51,161 bases of DNA. It comes from an uncultured Lachnospiraceae bacterium (GTDB taxonomy: Bacteria > Bacillota > Clostridia > Lachnospirales > Lachnospiraceae). Location: positions 1 through 51,161 of the forward strand of contig CAMJPM010000009.1 in NCBI GenBank assembly GCA_946407725.1, read 5' to 3'. Within the stretch, counting starts at the first letter, position 1. Each line of letters begins with the position of its first letter. The position numbers and the translations under genes are program-made. Under the pieces are notes generated by a model. It made no database searches. It had not been told where the DNA came from and saw only the letters and a program-made list of their open reading frames with translations. Below are positions 4,616 to 22,719 of this stretch, one piece after another.

Positions 4616-4724
4616 TGGCACACGCCTCCTTTTAGCATACTCTAAAAAACTAACTATCCTAATGAGTTTTTTAGAGTATCTCAGAAAACGTGCTATAATG
4701 GTAGGCGCATGATTTGGCAGTTAC

Positions 4725-4732
4725 ATCTAAGA
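4725..4732. repeat. IS66 target-site duplication, right copy
   Basis: ATCTAAGA matches 1954-1961. In the split gene it encodes part of the I-L-D residues preceding the RT catalytic block. Confidence 0.9.
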
Positions 4733-5706
4733 TGTGGTTGGTGCTATTCTTCTCGATCATGACGTTGAGTTTACGTAGTGCTTTATGGCAGTTTCTATTG
4801 GGACGGAATCCCATCATCTCATCATAGAAATGTGGTTCAAACACCGCTTCCAATATTCTTCTCAATGCTTCCTGCACCAGTTTGTCTTCATAACAGTAGA
4901 TGCTGAGAGGACGAGTTTTTCCATTATCTTTTGGAATCTCAACTCTTCTTGCCGGTTTGGGTCTGTATGTTTTGCTTTTCAGTCTCTCAACCAGCTCTTT
5001 GAGGTTTTCATCGAGATTCTTCTCGTAGTCCTCTTTCGTTATTCCGTCTATACCGACTGCCTTGTCTCCGTCCATCGAGGCGTTACAGTCTTTCAACATA
5101 TCGTAGTTGATAAGATGTCCGACTGATGTAAATACCATGTCTGGATTTTCAGCTGATAATTGTGCTATTCTCGCAAGTTTCGTTTCCATTACGTTTTCTA
5201 TCTCTGCGTATAGATAATGTTTCCCTCTTGATATTGTTTTGCATGGCAAAAACCGTGAGGAGCGGTTCTCTCTCGGCTTCCCTCCTGCGTTATTAGTCGC
5301 TATCAACGGTACTATCCGGCCATCCGACTGCCTGCACCCCATTTAACCTCCTTCCTTTTCTGGTTGTGCGTTATACCTCGCATTCCTTACGAGGGGAAAA
5401 CAGGCTCTCCCCAGTTGATGTACTGCCATTGTACTGCATGACTGGCTTTAGAAACGCCGCGGGAATATGTGAAATCTCGCCATGACGATAAACCCATATG
5501 TTGACTTCCGCATTTTCAGCTACGTCGTCTTCCCGGTCTAATATTTGATTTCGGCGCCAAATCGCCATGTAGCCCTACAGCCTATTGACCTGCGCTCAGC
5601 ACATTTCGTTACCTCCATGCACCGCAGGCTTTTACCGATGATGTGGCTGGCATCTTATCGGACGGGATTTACACCCGTTAAACAATACACCCTTGGCTGG
5701 GCGCAC

Positions 5707-16056: not shown

Positions 16057-16076
16057 GTGCCTCTCACCCTTAAGAA
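16057..16076 (-). repeat. 3' palindrome-type repeat, copy 1 (overlaps rpn-1 stop)
   Basis: GTGCCTCTCACCCTTAAGAA on the plus strand. It overlaps the stop codon of the Rpn gene, so the gene's last codons are written in the repeat. It matches the copies at 17420, 19077, 20403 and 21036. Confidence 0.6.
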
Positions 16077-17146
16077 ACCTCCCGTTTGTTATCTGTCTTT
16101 TCCCTCCAGTATTCCTCTATAATCTTCTCTTCATCATAATCAGGAGCATATTTCCGGGCAATGGTATATATTTTTGAGATATCAATTTCACTTTCCTCAA
16201 GATCCTCTGCAATCTGAGAAACGGTTTTTCCCTTTTTGAGTTTACGGCATATCATGCTGATTAGCTGTTCTTCAGCTCCTTCTGCTTTTCCTTCTGCCAC
16301 ACCTTGCCTGTGCGCAACAACTACATCCAATTCTAAAACATGTCCGCCCATAATATCACCCACTTTCTCCTGTAGGGTCTTATACCCGGCAGTAATATTG
16401 TTCCAAATACTTGCGACAAACCTCACGATCAGACTAAGCGAATACCCAGACAATCTGCCCTCATCCACTTCATCCGAAAGTCTCACCATCAGTTTATGAT
16501 ACTTACCAACAAGCTCATTCCTGCTTTTTTCATCTTTATCAAGAATACTAAATCTGCTCTCATCATTAAAAATAAGAAATGGTATCAGAAAATATAGTCT
16601 GTTTTCAAATATAACCTTTGTATCAAAGTCTCGCACCTTATATATGGGAATGCTGTAATTGACAGATCCGCCGGGAGTTTCAATTACTATCCCTGCATCG
16701 TTTGGATCATTCTCCCTGCCTCTCAAAAGCAAAACCCCTGCATTTGGAAAACTCACGTTTAATTGAATCTTATTATTTATATTGCCATCGACGGCTATCT
16801 GAGATCCATATTCAAACATCTTTACCAGGATCGTTCCATCATATTTTCCGCTCTCACATTCTAAGTGGTATAGCTTTGATCTTCCCCTGTCGGTTATTCC
16901 AAAATGTGAATCTGTTATCTTTTTCTTATTGGAACCATCAGGGCTCTCAACAAAATGCTCGTTTCGAAGCCTTGTAACCCTTGCGTTTGTACCATAGTCC
17001 TCATGAAAAAAATAATTAACAAGCGGAATTAAAAGATCATCGCATTCCCCCTCCATTGTTCTAAATGCATCATCATAAGGAGTAAAGGAATCTAATGGAT
17101 TACCTTTGTGCCCCATCTTTTCATCAAAAGCGTTATCTTGTCTCAT
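16070..17146 (-). CDS. Rpn-family PD-(D/E)XK nuclease (putative transposase type), copy 1
   Basis: The 358-residue protein starts with the family's FTPYDDAFRTMEGECDDLLIP segment. The nuclease core shows ITDSHFGI (D79) and YHLECESGKYDG (E96, E98), fitting the PD-(D/E)XK arrangement of Rpn/PDDEXK_2 proteins. Near residue 280 comes a charged helix GKAEGAEEQL, then RKLKKGKTVSQIAEDLEES, a helix-turn-helix-like tail. Rpn proteins are DNA nucleases linked to recombination and recently to phage defence. It has GGAGGA upstream and a conserved 95-nt element at 17244-17338. The second copy (19129-20175) shares most of this layout. Confidence 0.85.
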   Translation of the reverse strand: MRQDNAFDEKMGHKGNPLDSFTPYDDAFRTMEGECDDLLIPLVNYFFHEDYGTNARVTRLRNEHFVESPDGSNKKKITDSHFGITDRGRSKLYHLECESGKYDGTILVKMFEYGSQIAVDGNINNKIQLNVSFPNAGVLLLRGRENDPNDAGIVIETPGGSVNYSIPIYKVRDFDTKVIFENRLYFLIPFLIFNDESRFSILDKDEKSRNELVGKYHKLMVRLSDEVDEGRLSGYSLSLIVRFVASIWNNITAGYKTLQEKVGDIMGGHVLELDVVVAHRQGVAEGKAEGAEEQLISMICRKLKKGKTVSQIAEDLEESEIDISKIYTIARKYAPDYDEEKIIEEYWREKTDNKREVS

Positions 17147-17243
17147 TTTCTATCCTCCTTGCACACAGTTTCAGAAACTGCGGCAAAGGGAAGAAACGGA
17201 TCAGAATCTTTGTAGAAAAAGAAGGAAAAACGTGGTAACGATT

Positions 17244-17338
17244 TCTGCTATTCTTATGCTTCTCTTGGGATCTTTGGGCGAGATGCCCGAGAGCCTAAAG
17301 CGGCAGTTCCATATTTGAGATCAGCATATGATAGCAGA
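17244..17338 (-). ncRNA. 95-nt structured element upstream of rpn-1 (copy A), putative leader
   Basis: On the minus strand it begins TCTGCTATCATATGC and ends GCATAAGAATAGCAGA. The ends can pair as TCTGCTAT/ATAGCAGA plus TATGC/GCATA. Inside are GGGCATCTCGCCC (a hairpin) and GCTCTC...GAGAAGC. Copy B at 20269-20363 has the same length and only four differences. Flanking sequence differs more. It could be a cis-acting RNA or a DNA element with inverted ends. The strand given is that of the downstream gene. Confidence 0.55.
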
Positions 17339-17356
17339 TCTATATTCAATTGTAAA
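17328..17356 (-). promoter_or_regulatory. Putative sigma-A promoter of rpn-1
   Basis: TTTACA (17351-17356) and TATCAT (17328-17333) are separated by 17 bases on the minus strand. The same boxes and spacing occur before rpn-2 (20353-20381). If used, transcription would start within the 95-nt element. Confidence 0.55.
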
Positions 17357-17419
17357 TACTGTCAATCCAATTTATATATTATCTTTTTTTACTCTGTTTA
17401 TCAGCACGTCCAAACTCCT

Positions 17420-17439
17420 AGTGCCTGGCGCTCTTAATG
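17420..17439 (-). repeat. 3' palindrome-type repeat, copy 2 (diverged)
   Basis: AGTGCCTGGCGCTCTTAATG lies 37 bases beyond the stop of the frameshifted gene. The following 40 bases resemble those after copy 3 at 19077. Confidence 0.5.
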
Positions 17440-17475
17440 GGAGTATTTGATTTTCTCCGTTCTATATTCAATCCC

Positions 17476-18155
17476 CTATACCGGAGCCAAAACATCCTTC
17501 ACTATCTTTTCTACGTCATACTCAGGAGCATATTTCTCAGCAATATTCACGATTGCCTGTATGGTAAATTCATCTTCCTCGAGTTCCTCTGCAATCTGAT
17601 ATACAGACTTGCCTTTCCTGAGTTTCTTACATATAAGCTCAATTATATGCACCTCTCTTCCTTCTTCCCTTCCGTTCCTTCTTCTCTGCTTTCCCTTCTT
17701 ACTTCCTGTATATCAAATCCATTAAAGTGTTCAAAAAGCCGGTTCATGTTGCCTCCTTCTATCTGATCTGTAAGATCAAATATTTCCTCCTCCGGAAGAT
17801 TGATCTCTCTAAGATATGCCTGGATCAGTTTCCTAAATATGATCAACACATCTCCTGGTGCTTTTCCCATATCATCAAGATAGCCAACAAGAAAAACTAG
17901 ATTCTTGAATTCCTCCACATTTCTCAACCTGTTGATCAACATGATAAATGATATATCCTCGATGTCCTCAGGTTTGACATTCTCCAGGAAATCTATCCCG
18001 GAATAGTTCCTCAAAAGCTGCGAGCAAATGCTCCCGCTATTAAAATACGTGAAAATAGCATGAGAAGTACTCACTGGAATATCCATCCTCTTCAACATTT
18101 GCTTCCTTCCACGCCTAGTATAACCGTCATAAATTAAATCATCATTAATTTCCAT
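17476..18155 (-). pseudogene. Rpn-related gene lacking the nuclease core, frameshifted
   Basis: The frame from the ATG at 18155 (or TTG at 18182) gives about 170 residues, including LINRLRNVEEFKNLVFLVGY and a C-terminal part GNMNRLFEHFNGFDIQEVRRE. It ends at 17643 in EERCI. In another frame, from about 17690, the sequence continues as HIIELICKKLRKGKSVYQIAEE to ...KIVKDVLAPV with TAG at 17476-17478. That tail is nearly the same as in rpn-2. A one-base slip in the purine-rich GAAGGAACGGAAGGGAAGAAGG tract would join the two. No DSHF/ECES nuclease motif is present. It overlaps the upstream 207-residue gene if TTG is used. Programmed frameshifting cannot be excluded. Confidence 0.65.
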
Positions 18156-18174
18156 GACGCAATCACGACTGTAA

Positions 18175-18798
18175 CTATCCAATTCTTATCAAAGAGCCAC
18201 TCTCTTCCTTTACCTTAAATAAATTATATTTTTCTATCCAAAACAACATATCTGAACATGCCAGATAATCAAAATCTCTGTCATATGTCTCATTCAAGCC
18301 AAAAGACTTTGCTCTTCCAATAACATAGGAATCATGTCCCTTATTTGTTTCAGGAAAAACAAATGCTCCTTTCCTCCAGAGGCATTTAGCAAGTTCAATT
18401 TTGCCATACTTTTGAAGTCTGGCAACTGAAAGTACAAAAAGGCATCTTGTTCCCCCTAAAAAGGCAGCCTTATAATTGGACAATAACAATTCATCAGAAA
18501 TATCTGATCTTAAATCATATACTAAGAAGCGATTTTTAAGTAATGAATATACTATACAACTACAAACCTTATGACAGTCTATAAGATTATCATCATCTGC
18601 ACCAACATCAAAAAAATGCTCTTTAATATAGATGCGACTTTCATCGTATGTTTGAAATAAAACAGCCTTATATTTTTCATCGGGAATTCTTTCAACATGG
18701 AATTTTTCTATATCATTAGGCAGCAGATCATTTAAAATTTCATCCAGAACCGGTTTTATTCCTACACTCCATAACAGATTTTGAGAGTATTTTGTCAT
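18175..18798 (-). CDS. Conserved-looking protein of unknown function (207 aa)
   Basis: I do not recognise this family. The protein is soluble, with no signal peptide or membrane helix. Notable segments are DCHKVCSCIVYSLLKNRFLVYDL around residue 75, GGTRCLFVLSVARLQKYGKIELAKC in the middle, and a charged C-terminus KVKEESGSL. The ATG at 18798 overlaps the stop of a 57-residue ORF (ATGA), and its own end may overlap the frameshifted Rpn-related gene. The three genes thus look like one operon. The AT-rich composition suggests acquired DNA. Confidence 0.6.
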   Translation of the reverse strand: MTKYSQNLLWSVGIKPVLDEILNDLLPNDIEKFHVERIPDEKYKAVLFQTYDESRIYIKEHFFDVGADDDNLIDCHKVCSCIVYSLLKNRFLVYDLRSDISDELLLSNYKAAFLGGTRCLFVLSVARLQKYGKIELAKCLWRKGAFVFPETNKGHDSYVIGRAKSFGLNETYDRDFDYLACSDMLFWIEKYNLFKVKEESGSLIRIG

Positions 18799-19128: not shown

Positions 19129-20175
19129 CTACACCGGTGCCAAAACATCCTTCACTATCTTTTCTATGTCATATTCAGGGGCATATTTCTCGGCTGTATT
19201 CACAATTGACTGAATGGTAGCCTCGTCTTCTTCAAGTTCCTCTGCAATCTGAGAAACGGTTTTTCCTTTTTTGAGTTTGCGACATATCATGTTGATTAAC
19301 TGTTCTTCAGCTCCTTCTGCTTTTCCTTCTGCCTTTCCCTTAGCTTCAGCTTCTCTCCAGGCTTTTATCCACTCTAATTCCTTATACTGTCCTCCCATAA
19401 TTTCACCTACTTTCGTATTTACAGTCCCATGTCCTAATGTCATGTTATAAGCCACCCTTTCCATTGTCTCAATAATAACGCCAAGAGAAAAAAGCGGCAG
19501 TTCACCTTTTTTGTATTCACTCTCAAGCCGTCTGAATATTTCTTTATAATGCTGAACAAGATCGTTCCAGTTTCCTTCATCCTTTTCCAGCTCGTTGAGC
19601 TTATCCTTATAATTCAGGATATAAAACGGTATGAGAAAATATAGTTTTTTATTAAAAATCTCATCAAGCTCTATGTTTTTCCGCTTTATTATCGGGACGT
19701 TATACTTTATTTCCCCATCAGGAGTAATAATGTCAATCTCTGCCTTATCCGCTACGTTGTCACCTCCATTTAGAAGAAGCAATCCTGTATACGGAAACCT
19801 TATCCTGAGCTTTGTCGGTGTCCTTTCCGCTTCATCAAGAGCGATCTGTGAAACATACTCAAAAATTCTGATTAGAATAGAATTATCGAATCCACCGCTT
19901 TCGCACTCAATATGGTATTTTTTAATAACACCATTCTCTGAAATGCTGAAATGTGAGTCCGTAATCCTTTTTTGTACTGATCCATCTGTCCCTTCACTGA
20001 AGTGTTCATTCCGTAACCTTATTACTTCAGCCTCCGGGCCAAAAGATTCACCGAATAAATAGTTCACAAGGGATACAAGCAGATCATCACACGCTCCCTC
20101 CATAATCCTGAAAGCATCATCATATGGCGTAGGCGAATATAGATCGTTCGCATCAACTGGTTTCTTCTCTGTCAT
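19129..20175 (-). CDS. Rpn-family PD-(D/E)XK nuclease (putative transposase type), copy 2
   Basis: The 348-residue paralogue of the protein at 16070-17146 keeps the same order: PTPYDDAFRIMEGACDDLLV, ITDSHFSI (D73), YHIECESGGFDN (E90, E92), FLIPFYILNY, a repeated GKAEGKAEGAEEQL helix and the tail RKLKKGKTVSQIAEELEEDE. Catalytic residues appear intact. The upstream region is the second copy of the 95-nt element, with the same promoter boxes. The last 170 bases are close to those of the frameshifted gene at 17476, suggesting duplication or gene conversion. Likely role: DNA cleavage in recombination or defence. Confidence 0.85.
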   Translation of the reverse strand: MTEKKPVDANDLYSPTPYDDAFRIMEGACDDLLVSLVNYLFGESFGPEAEVIRLRNEHFSEGTDGSVQKRITDSHFSISENGVIKKYHIECESGGFDNSILIRIFEYVSQIALDEAERTPTKLRIRFPYTGLLLLNGGDNVADKAEIDIITPDGEIKYNVPIIKRKNIELDEIFNKKLYFLIPFYILNYKDKLNELEKDEGNWNDLVQHYKEIFRRLESEYKKGELPLFSLGVIIETMERVAYNMTLGHGTVNTKVGEIMGGQYKELEWIKAWREAEAKGKAEGKAEGAEEQLINMICRKLKKGKTVSQIAEELEEDEATIQSIVNTAEKYAPEYDIEKIVKDVLAPV

Positions 20176-20268: not shown

Positions 20269-20363
20269 TCTGCTATTCTTATGCTTCTCTTGGGATTTTT
20301 GGGCGAGATGCCCGAGAGCCTAAAGCGGCAGTTCCATATTTAAGATTTGCATATGATAGCAGA
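20269..20363 (-). ncRNA. 95-nt structured element upstream of rpn-2 (copy B), putative leader
   Basis: Same length as copy A (17244-17338) with four substitutions, none in the paired ends TCTGCTAT/ATAGCAGA and TATGC/GCATA or in the GGGCATCTCGCCC hairpin. It ends 94 bases before the rpn-2 start. See copy A for the structure. Confidence 0.55.
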
Positions 20364-20381
20364 TCTGTATTCAGTTGTAAA
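20353..20381 (-). promoter_or_regulatory. Putative sigma-A promoter of rpn-2
   Basis: TTTACA (20376-20381) and TATCAT (20353-20358) with a 17-base spacer, conserved with the rpn-1 copy. Confidence 0.55.
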
Positions 20382-20425: not shown

Positions 20426-20977
20426 CTAAAGCGCTTCTGACAGCACCAACTTCAGGTCCGGAAATAATCCACAGGGTATTTCTTCGTCAAACGTGACCTG
20501 ATCTCCCAGTTCGCTTTCTTCCTCGTCAGAAAACCTGAATGTATTTATGGTTTTTGTTTCCGGATTTATGATCCAGTACTCCCGGACTCCCGCCATGCGG
20601 TATTTGAAAAGTTTGATACCGTAATCCAGTTTTTTGCTGGAAAGGGATACCACCTCAACCACTATATCAGGTGCGCCGTTGCAGCCTCTTTCATCAAGCT
20701 TGCTTTCATCGCACACAACTATGACATCAGGCTCAAGATAATTTCTGTTATCTCTTTTCAGAAATACTGCCACCGGGGATGAGAATACTCTGCATTTTCC
20801 ACCCTTGTCCCTGATATGATCCCGGAATTCAGCCGCCACAGCCATAACAATGGCCTGATGCAAAGTTCCGGGAGAAGCCATATCATACCACACCCCATCA
20901 ATAAGCTCTGCCCTCTCACCTTCAGGTAAAGCGTAAATATCTTCTATTGTGTATCCCTTTGTCTCTGCCGCTTCCAT
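20426..20977 (-). CDS. Uma2-family (DUF820) PD-(D/E)XK endonuclease-like protein
   Basis: The 183-residue protein has the Uma2 layout: YTIEDIYALPEGERAELIDGVWYDM at the N-terminus, SPGTLHQAIVMAVAAEF, and the restriction-type core EPDVIVV followed by GAPDIVVEVVSLSSKKLDYGIKLFKYRMAGVREYWII. The D...E-x-V...K residues of PD-(D/E)XK are visible. The family is abundant in cyanobacteria and some Firmicutes, with unknown cellular role. GGAGGA precedes the ATG. It ends in one of the island's 3' repeats. Confidence 0.85.
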   Translation of the reverse strand: MEAAETKGYTIEDIYALPEGERAELIDGVWYDMASPGTLHQAIVMAVAAEFRDHIRDKGGKCRVFSSPVAVFLKRDNRNYLEPDVIVVCDESKLDERGCNGAPDIVVEVVSLSSKKLDYGIKLFKYRMAGVREYWIINPETKTINTFRFSDEEESELGDQVTFDEEIPCGLFPDLKLVLSEAL

Positions 20978-21948: not shown

Positions 21949-22719
21949 TCAAACCACAACAGTTACCTGATCCGCACTGAGCTCCAGACCGGCGGTAATG
22001 CCATTCATGGTAAAAGTGGTGTTCACGGTTCTTCTCCCGGGATTTACCGAGATCACGGTAAATTCCATACCGGCGTATATCCCGGTATCGTCTTTTACCC
22101 TGTCTCCCGGATGGATACCTATATCCGGAACAGCCCCTTGGTCTACGGGAAGCTCCTCTGCCATCCCCATTTTTACGTCTATCCAGTGAAGCGGCGGATC
22201 CCCTTCAGCCCATAGCCCGAAGCGGATCCTGCGTCTTTTCCCAAAGAGCTCCGCATCCACTATGGCTCTCCTGTGGGGAATATCCAGCTTTGAGATATGA
22301 TTTCTGTACCTCGCCAGGGGACCCACCATCTTTTCTATATAGCGGTGGTTTTTCATACGTATGTAGCTCACATGCATCACTCCGTCATCTGTTACGGATT
22401 CAAGGAATGCCTGGTCTTCTGATCCCACCGGGATAAAAAGCCGTTCGTCCTCATTTTTCTTTTCTCCCATGGAAAGGATACGTTTGAATTTCGGGATTTT
22501 TTTCAGGGAATCATAAATATGCTCCGGAGCCTCCGTCTCAATGAAGAGATACCCCGGAAACATCTTCCTGAAAATGATCTTGTTATTGCCCCCGCTGCGC
22601 CTCACTTCTTCATAAAGGGGTATGAACAGTTTCCCATAGCTCTCCCTGTCCTGCAATTCCTCTATGTAGCGCTTTATCAGCTCTTCCTCCCCGCTGCGGG
22701 CCTGTATCACATACCACAT
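21949..22719 (-). CDS. loaP: LoaP-type NusG-family transcription antiterminator
   Basis: The 256-residue protein starts with the NGN domain (MWYVIQARSGEEELIKRYIEEL, then RKMFPGYLFIE at about residue 57). It ends with a KOW domain (about residues 200-255: IHPGDRVKDDTGIYAGMEFTVISVN). It is longer than housekeeping NusG and matches LoaP, which acts on selected long operons, often for polysaccharides or antibiotics, through an RNA hairpin in the leader. It follows the hybrid kinase by 64 nt, in which there is a hairpin (22757-22785), and is probably co-transcribed with it. Its target is not shown by sequence. The glycan cluster at 7273-14312 is a candidate. Confidence 0.85.
   Translation of the reverse strand: MWYVIQARSGEEELIKRYIEELQDRESYGKLFIPLYEEVRRSGGNNKIIFRKMFPGYLFIETEAPEHIYDSLKKIPKFKRILSMGEKKNEDERLFIPVGSEDQAFLESVTDDGVMHVSYIRMKNHRYIEKMVGPLARYRNHISKLDIPHRRAIVDAELFGKRRRIRFGLWAEGDPPLHWIDVKMGMAEELPVDQGAVPDIGIHPGDRVKDDTGIYAGMEFTVISVNPGRRTVNTTFTMNGITAGLELSADQVTVVV

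Follow-up and report, generated by a model that had tools for sequence, protein, structure and literature searches.

What is the short repeated element that lies upstream of two Rpn-type genes in the genome of an uncultured Lachnospiraceae bacterium? The window, the whole stretch of DNA that was analysed, covers 51,161 nucleotides and holds two copies of it. Copy A (17244-17338) and copy B (20269-20363) differ at 4 of 95 positions, and the similarity reaches 113 nt (17244-17356 and 20269-20381), giving a direct repeat with 6 differences. The 100-nt flanks are unrelated, with ungapped identities of 26/100 and 21/100, so the surroundings have indeed diverged far more than the element, as a preliminary description of this DNA had claimed. 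The inverted ends, the GGGC/GCCC hairpin, and the TTTACA-17-TATCAT pair that it reported are also present in both copies. Since both genes concerned are on the minus strand, the element was read on that strand (Table 1). Each copy is then laid out as TTTACA, 17 nt, TATCAT, 39 nt, GGGC[AUCUC]GCCC, and AUCCC, with the gene starting about 95-100 nt past the element. When folded as RNA, both strands of copies A and B beat shuffled sequences with z values of -3.6 to -4.0.

A DNA search found no third copy in the window's own genome. The sole Rfam match up to E 10 for positions 17150-17450 was a nematode snoRNA (E 3.3). At the gathering cut-off Rfam gave two matches in the window, both to group II introns and far from the element. 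These group II intron parts are at 1022-1096 and 5444-5671 (-), accompanied by reverse-transcriptase-like fragments recognised by eye at 1117-1860 and 4671-5342. Transposase-like genes lie between the intron parts, as if the intron had been split by insertion.

Table 1. Positions in the window of the two Rpn-type genes and of the parts of the element upstream of each.
Feature	Positions	Strand	Remarks
Rpn-type gene (F1), 358 aa, downstream of copy A	16070..17146	-	homologue of 19129..20175, 49-53% identity
Right arm of outer inverted repeat, copy A	17244..17251	-	pairs with 17331-17338
Leader hairpin, copy A, GGGC[AUCUC]GCCC	17276..17288	-	starts 39 nt past the -10 box
Extended -10, copy A, TGCTATCAT	17328..17336	-	TG-N-TATNNT
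Left arm of outer inverted repeat, copy A	17331..17338	-	overlaps the -10 box; pairs with 17244-17251
-35 box TTTACA, copy A	17351..17356	-	spacing of 17 to TATNNT
Rpn-type gene (F1), 348 aa, downstream of copy B	19129..20175	-	C-terminal module in common with a PF12784 protein
Right arm of outer inverted repeat, copy B	20269..20276	-	pairs with 20356-20363
Leader hairpin, copy B	20301..20313	-	stem-loop as in the collected copies
Extended -10, copy B	20353..20361	-	TG-N-TATNNT
Left arm of outer inverted repeat, copy B	20356..20363	-	overlaps the -10 box; pairs with 20269-20276
-35 box TTTACA, copy B	20376..20381	-	promoter pattern

Rpn proteins are toxic nucleases linked to phage defence. The genes of the window, which we call type F1, resemble them at the C-terminus. 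In the product of the gene downstream of copy B, the C-terminal 64 aa share 45% of their residues (E 2e-15) with the corresponding C-terminal module in a PF12784 protein, and this F1 module is common to PF12784 and PF04754 proteins. The same gene matched TIGR01784 at just E 0.072, and the gene downstream of copy A had no Pfam or NCBIfam match. The N-terminal (nuclease) domain of the window's F1 proteins matched none of PF04754, PF12784, and TIGR01784, and a fold model of F1 spoke neither for nor against Rpn. Judged from these comparisons, the name Rpn for the F1 genes of the window appears well motivated but not proven. Two more types were considered. F2 matched TIGR01784 below its curated cut-off (E 4.2e-5 for L105 and 0.0025 for L119), and the F3 gene of genome G016 is a PF12784 member (E 6.2e-22, 78.9 bits against a cut-off of 27.4). 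With hhalign no alignment of F1 to F3 was obtained, and F2 aligned to F3 over the catalytic-type stretch with E 0.0022 at a probability of just 12.9%. The leader described below spans Rpn-type subfamilies that barely align.

Two neighbours of the element in the window may be recorded here. Between the intact Rpn-type genes is a decayed third Rpn-like gene (17473-18182, -), whose C-terminal module is in another frame with stops and whose upper part resembles by eye the PF04754 protein L153. Directly upstream of copy B, 20426-20977 (-) is a gene for a putative endonuclease of the Uma2 family (PF05685, E 3e-32).

The upstream regions of Rpn-like genes in the genus were then compared. From 109 Rpn-like protein matches (25 + 60 + 24), the 74 with an N-terminal part were used: 33 of F1, 21 of F2, and 20 of F3. 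One more (G009:C228) has its N-terminus and was omitted with its upstream sequence absent. The pattern TTTAC[A/T]-N17-TATNNT is found in 26 of the 74 (14 F1, 10 F2, and 2 F3). Each other spacing from 12 to 22 is found in five or fewer, and the reverse complements of the 74 regions gave 0 to 4 per spacing, with one at spacing 17. The strict promoter is absent upstream of the other 48, which speaks against a shared leader. All nine copies of the window's own subfamily (subfamily 1) keep TTTAC[A/T] at spacing 17 from TATNNT. Among 22 cluster representatives of the hairpin-bearing copies the promoter spacer mostly carries little information outside a TG at positions 21-22, with T in 21 and G in all 22.

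TTTACA-N14-TG-N-TATNNT matches the layout of an extended -10 promoter. The fetched sequence, 415.5 kb made up of loci picked for the element or for LoaP, has this string 16 times with TG at spacing 14, and 14 of these are elements. As controls, TG at spacing 11 occurs once and at 12, 13, 15, 16, and 17 never. A hairpin accompanies 14 of the 24 promoter matches in this sequence, and all 14 are known elements. Two F3 genes, in G015 and G007 (L184 and L198), have a TTGAAA-type -35 and an extended -10 followed by two hairpins, CGACA[AUUC]UGUCG and GGC[GUUUC]GCC; this arrangement is possibly a further variant of the leader.

A hairpin follows in 22 of the 26 promoter-bearing regions. The other four (L122, L159, L160, and L185) have the promoter but no such hairpin and are outside the set of 26 hairpin copies, which consists of the 22 regions plus G011, G006b, G006c, and G016b from covariance-model scans. 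In 24 of these 26 copies the hairpin starts 30-39 nt past the -10 box. In the remaining two (L119 and L103) it starts at 69 and 75 nt; these hairpins may differ from the common one and were excluded from alignment A4. The stems change in a compensatory manner (GGGC/GCCC, GAGC/GCUC, GGCA/UGCC, and GGCU/AGCC), and the loop keeps an (R/U)U(N)UC-like form, with RUNUC, RUUC, UUUC, GUUUC, and UUAUC recorded. The combination of extended -10, hairpin, and trailing WTYC, a rule composed after the copies had been seen, is found in 20 of the 74 upstream regions (11 F1, 6 F2, and 3 F3), in one of the 74 reverse complements, and in none of 20 shuffled sets. Formal covariation appears to give the predicted leader structure modest support. 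For nine copies, 9 of 500 shuffles reached the covariation score and 30-108 of the 500 reached the other four measures, and RNAalifold on nine subfamily-2 leaders gave three invariant pairs and no covariation. Other pairings were seen at single loci. In G032 two Rpn-type genes (L159 and L160) have the same promoter with another palindromic hairpin, CCGCATATGCGG, just before the ribosome-binding site, and in G041 a GGAACUGCCGC stretch could possibly pair with GC-rich sequence before the ribosome-binding site.

Much the same picture might come from an ordinary strong promoter whose 5' hairpin is passive or stabilises the mRNA, the unit having spread by descent and duplication of rpn without any regulatory role. 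Extended -10 promoters are commonplace, some copies in the same genome are recent duplicates, and the RNA covariation is modest. Yet the position of the hairpin and the type of its loop are kept across barely aligning subfamilies with dissimilar promoter spacers, and we consider an explanation without regulation rather unlikely.

The genus was also scanned without regard to gene context. With a covariance model built on copies A and B and one relative, 9 copies came to light in 6 of the 48 same-genus genomes scanned. With the promoter added, the model found the same 9 and three weaker matches, all in G016. All 12 have TTTAC[A/T]-N17-TATNNT, and an Rpn-type gene or remnant follows 10 of them. 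A context-blind promoter-hairpin pattern gave 22 matches in 12 of the 48 genomes, against one for the reversed pattern. This pattern was written from copies already seen, so that 20 of the 22 places were known beforehand, some of them from looking upstream of Rpn-like genes, and only two places in G040 were new. An Rpn-type gene or remnant is downstream of 20 of the 22, 17 called through homology to families whose profile support is in part weak and three by resemblance alone. On the same strand downstream are F1 genes in 12 cases, F2 genes in two, F2 remnants recognised by eye in two (G006b and G006c), and the F3 gene of G016 in one. The three called by resemblance, two in G040 and a remnant in G011, we take to be Rpn from their likeness; an 84-aa fragment in G040 had no profile match. 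The last two matches belong to a single repeat in G016 and precede a different small gene. In that genome, a copy of the element upstream of a small ORF unlike Rpn (MKKGTILAEIIEKPS...) is common to two contig ends (L101 and L099). The link to Rpn genes that the preliminary description drew from two loci therefore holds, although the window's own genes are Rpn by their C-terminal module only. Copies lying mostly away from rpn genes, the outcome it had named as fatal to its proposal, were not what either scan gave.

A stricter promoter-hairpin pattern, limited to GGGCNNNTCGCCC, turned up in 2 of 397 genomes drawn from across the family; both belong to this genus, and the sampled genomes of other genera had none. 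A pattern scan of 84,980 named genomes gave nine matches. Six are among the copies described above and stand in Lachnospiraceae records: RGIG3644 (goat rumen), RGIG3232 (goat reticulum), RUG12780 (three times), and AC3007. A copy in MAG RUI064 (L029), labelled Oscillospiraceae, is near-identical to the AC3007 element and reflects either contamination or recent transfer. Two of the nine (L027 and L030) look like chance. A family-wide covariance-model search, insensitive as the best 10 candidates per genome were scored, had one new match (G228), which is unlike the element. Phage and plasmid collections held no match to the element, nor did viral contigs with two strict patterns. A third pattern matched once in viral contigs (L225), at a place with no recognisable Rpn-like frame downstream, and this match looks like chance. 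At the level of sequence, a conserved extended -10 promoter with a predicted hairpin at a near-fixed distance is common to several Rpn-type subfamilies of one genus.

The outer inverted repeat has a narrower distribution. For the nine subfamily-1 copies the outer stem was counted over six column pairs; of the 54 cells, 38 are Watson-Crick, 10 G.T, 3 A.C, and 3 other combinations. That G.T outnumbers A.C on the gene strand would fit pairing in a single strand, in what are small numbers. Across the 26 copies, a copy's own arms outrank all arms from other clusters in just three, with a mean rank fraction of 0.35 (chance 0.5). The paired ends noted earlier hence covary in the window's subfamily but not across the 26 copies, and the repeat appears supported for subfamily 1, not family-wide. 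The unit is the extended -10 promoter with its leader hairpin, not a free 95-nt paired element. A MITE or similar inverted-repeat element was rejected, as the arms vary between genomes, the repeat is confined to part of the family, and the conserved TTTACA is outside it.

As the left arm is the -10 region, the promoter's own transcript would lack that arm, and the outer stem would form only in read-through RNA or in single-stranded DNA. A comparable arrangement protects IS10 and IS50 from read-through, where an inverted repeat spanning the promoter forms only in outside transcripts. The outer repeat of the window also spans the promoter. Unlike those of IS10 and IS50, its right arm is not at the ribosome-binding site, and not every copy of the family has the repeat.

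Several genomes have pairs of copies whose edges can be read. The pairs in G032 (a/b), G027, and G040 are 95%, 96-97%, and 95-100% (per 40 nt) identical, respectively. In all three the identity starts 17-20 nt upstream of TTTACA. Its other edge falls on the rpn stop codon, or a few nt away at most, in the G032 and G027 pairs, while both G040 copies extend past the end of their contig. From these edges the copied unit looks like promoter, leader, and gene together. In the G027 pair a 50-nt match resumes further downstream. The G032a/c duplication is larger and takes in the upstream flank. In G006 (C231 and C315; L079 and L080) the element abuts different internal pieces of an F2 gene, as if the gene had been deleted inwards from the element end.

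The common starts and the G006 junctions would suit another role for the element, as the DNA end at which the nuclease or a host recombinase recognises a mobile rpn cassette. The conserved bases are, however, accounted for by promoter geometry, no target-site duplication was noticed in two pairs read by eye, and the G027 match that resumes past the cassette does not fit such an end. The available text of PMC10327210, moreover, reports rpn regions without defined ends. We regard a mobile end as very improbable. Like the mobile or repeat candidates in the available text on a 50-genome RNA screen (PMC11109978), the element is a multicopy structured motif beside nuclease or transposase genes; unlike them, it has few copies per genome, and these keep the same orientation and place ahead of one kind of gene.

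Another known system with a leader hairpin is LoaP. Upstream of the rpn-type genes the window encodes a LoaP/NusG-like protein of 256 aa (21949-22719, -), which matched NF033641 with E 6e-31 and 107.7 bits against a cut-off of 125. According to the available text of PMC12691694, LoaP antitermination requires a leader hairpin. The hairpin here could be the antitermination hairpin of loaP-linked polysaccharide operons in which rpn is a passenger. In the window, G041, and G006 a LoaP-like gene lies upstream in the same orientation, in G032 and G046 one is directly beside F1 rpn genes, and the letters UUCG occur within subfamily-2 loops. With a LoaP-like gene adjoining the element in G041, the first relative, LoaP looked like the main reading; it loses weight in that some leader genomes gave no LoaP match and the association is not significant. 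A long LoaP-type match is found in 7 of the 16 leader genomes versus 7 of the 32 others (Fisher p 0.18), counting long matches only and excluding shorter, weaker ones in G019, G020, and G023. Eight of the 16 have no LoaP match at E 1e-10 and nine have none of the long type. The LoaP counts come from a single-sequence query and include several incomplete MAGs, and the 16 of 48 leader genomes were compiled by hand from the covariance-model, promoter, and pattern scans. What weakens the reading is that the copies in G016, G027, G007, and G021 sit in genomes without a LoaP match; G027 is 99% complete and has two leaders. One copy precedes a PF12784 rpn gene between genes resembling etfA and ptb. 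A LoaP hairpin is thus improbable as the general explanation, though LoaP is a plausible partner for the leader in some loci.

By description rather than by sequence, the element may be set beside the LoaP leader hairpin of the dfn and mln operons in Bacillus velezensis, as given in the available text of PMC12691694. Both are small hairpins in a transcribed leader, here a predicted one, and a LoaP-like gene adjoins some of the loci here. They differ in that the loop and closing pair vary here, and in that the present leader is tied to rpn-type genes instead of long biosynthetic operons and is found also in genomes without a LoaP match.

We therefore return to a promoter and cis-acting leader RNA common to Rpn-type genes, with the hairpin setting their expression, which we consider probable. 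The leader keeps its position and orientation upstream of one kind of gene, and the promoter is so placed that the predicted hairpin would be transcribed. RNA polymerase would start at the extended -10 promoter, presumably about 7 nt past TATNNT. Some 24-32 nt in, the nascent RNA would fold into a small hairpin with a (R/U)U(N)UC loop, followed by the WTYC stretch. Acting in cis and most likely recognised by a protein, this hairpin would serve as a control site that sets the expression of a toxic nuclease after initiation. As Rpn-type subfamilies that barely align have the same leader, we propose that it may join them into one regulon. In the window's subfamily the outer stem, pairing the -10 region with RNA past the hairpin, may in addition silence read-through RNA, a weaker suggestion. 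Of the two roles offered by the preliminary description, a cis-acting RNA is the best reading, and a nuclease acting on the element is shown by no finding here.

The downstream genes are like the Rpn toxin-antitoxin genes (PF04754, PF12784, and TIGR01784) of PMC10327210 in being Rpn-type with a common C-terminal module. In the available text of that paper, rpn genes are toxin-antitoxin genes with an internal antitoxin that move without defined ends, and control is by this intragenic antitoxin; here it would be by promoter and leader. The same text states that differential rpn expression without known reasons suggests additional regulation. The Rpn nuclease is described in PMC5350276. A conserved rpn leader is mentioned neither in the available text of these two papers nor in the openly accessible literature searched.

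A more far-reaching reading, which we hold to be quite improbable, makes the leader the handle of an Rpn regulon with one trans-acting reader, perhaps Rpn itself, and also the left end of a mobile cassette of promoter, leader, and rpn. In its boldest form the hairpin RNA would be a partner of the nuclease, loading or inactivating it. For the biology of these genes, a leader common to divergent Rpn-type subfamilies offers a concrete sequence with which coordinated control may be tested, and a sequence handle on the spread of Rpn-type genes as cassettes.
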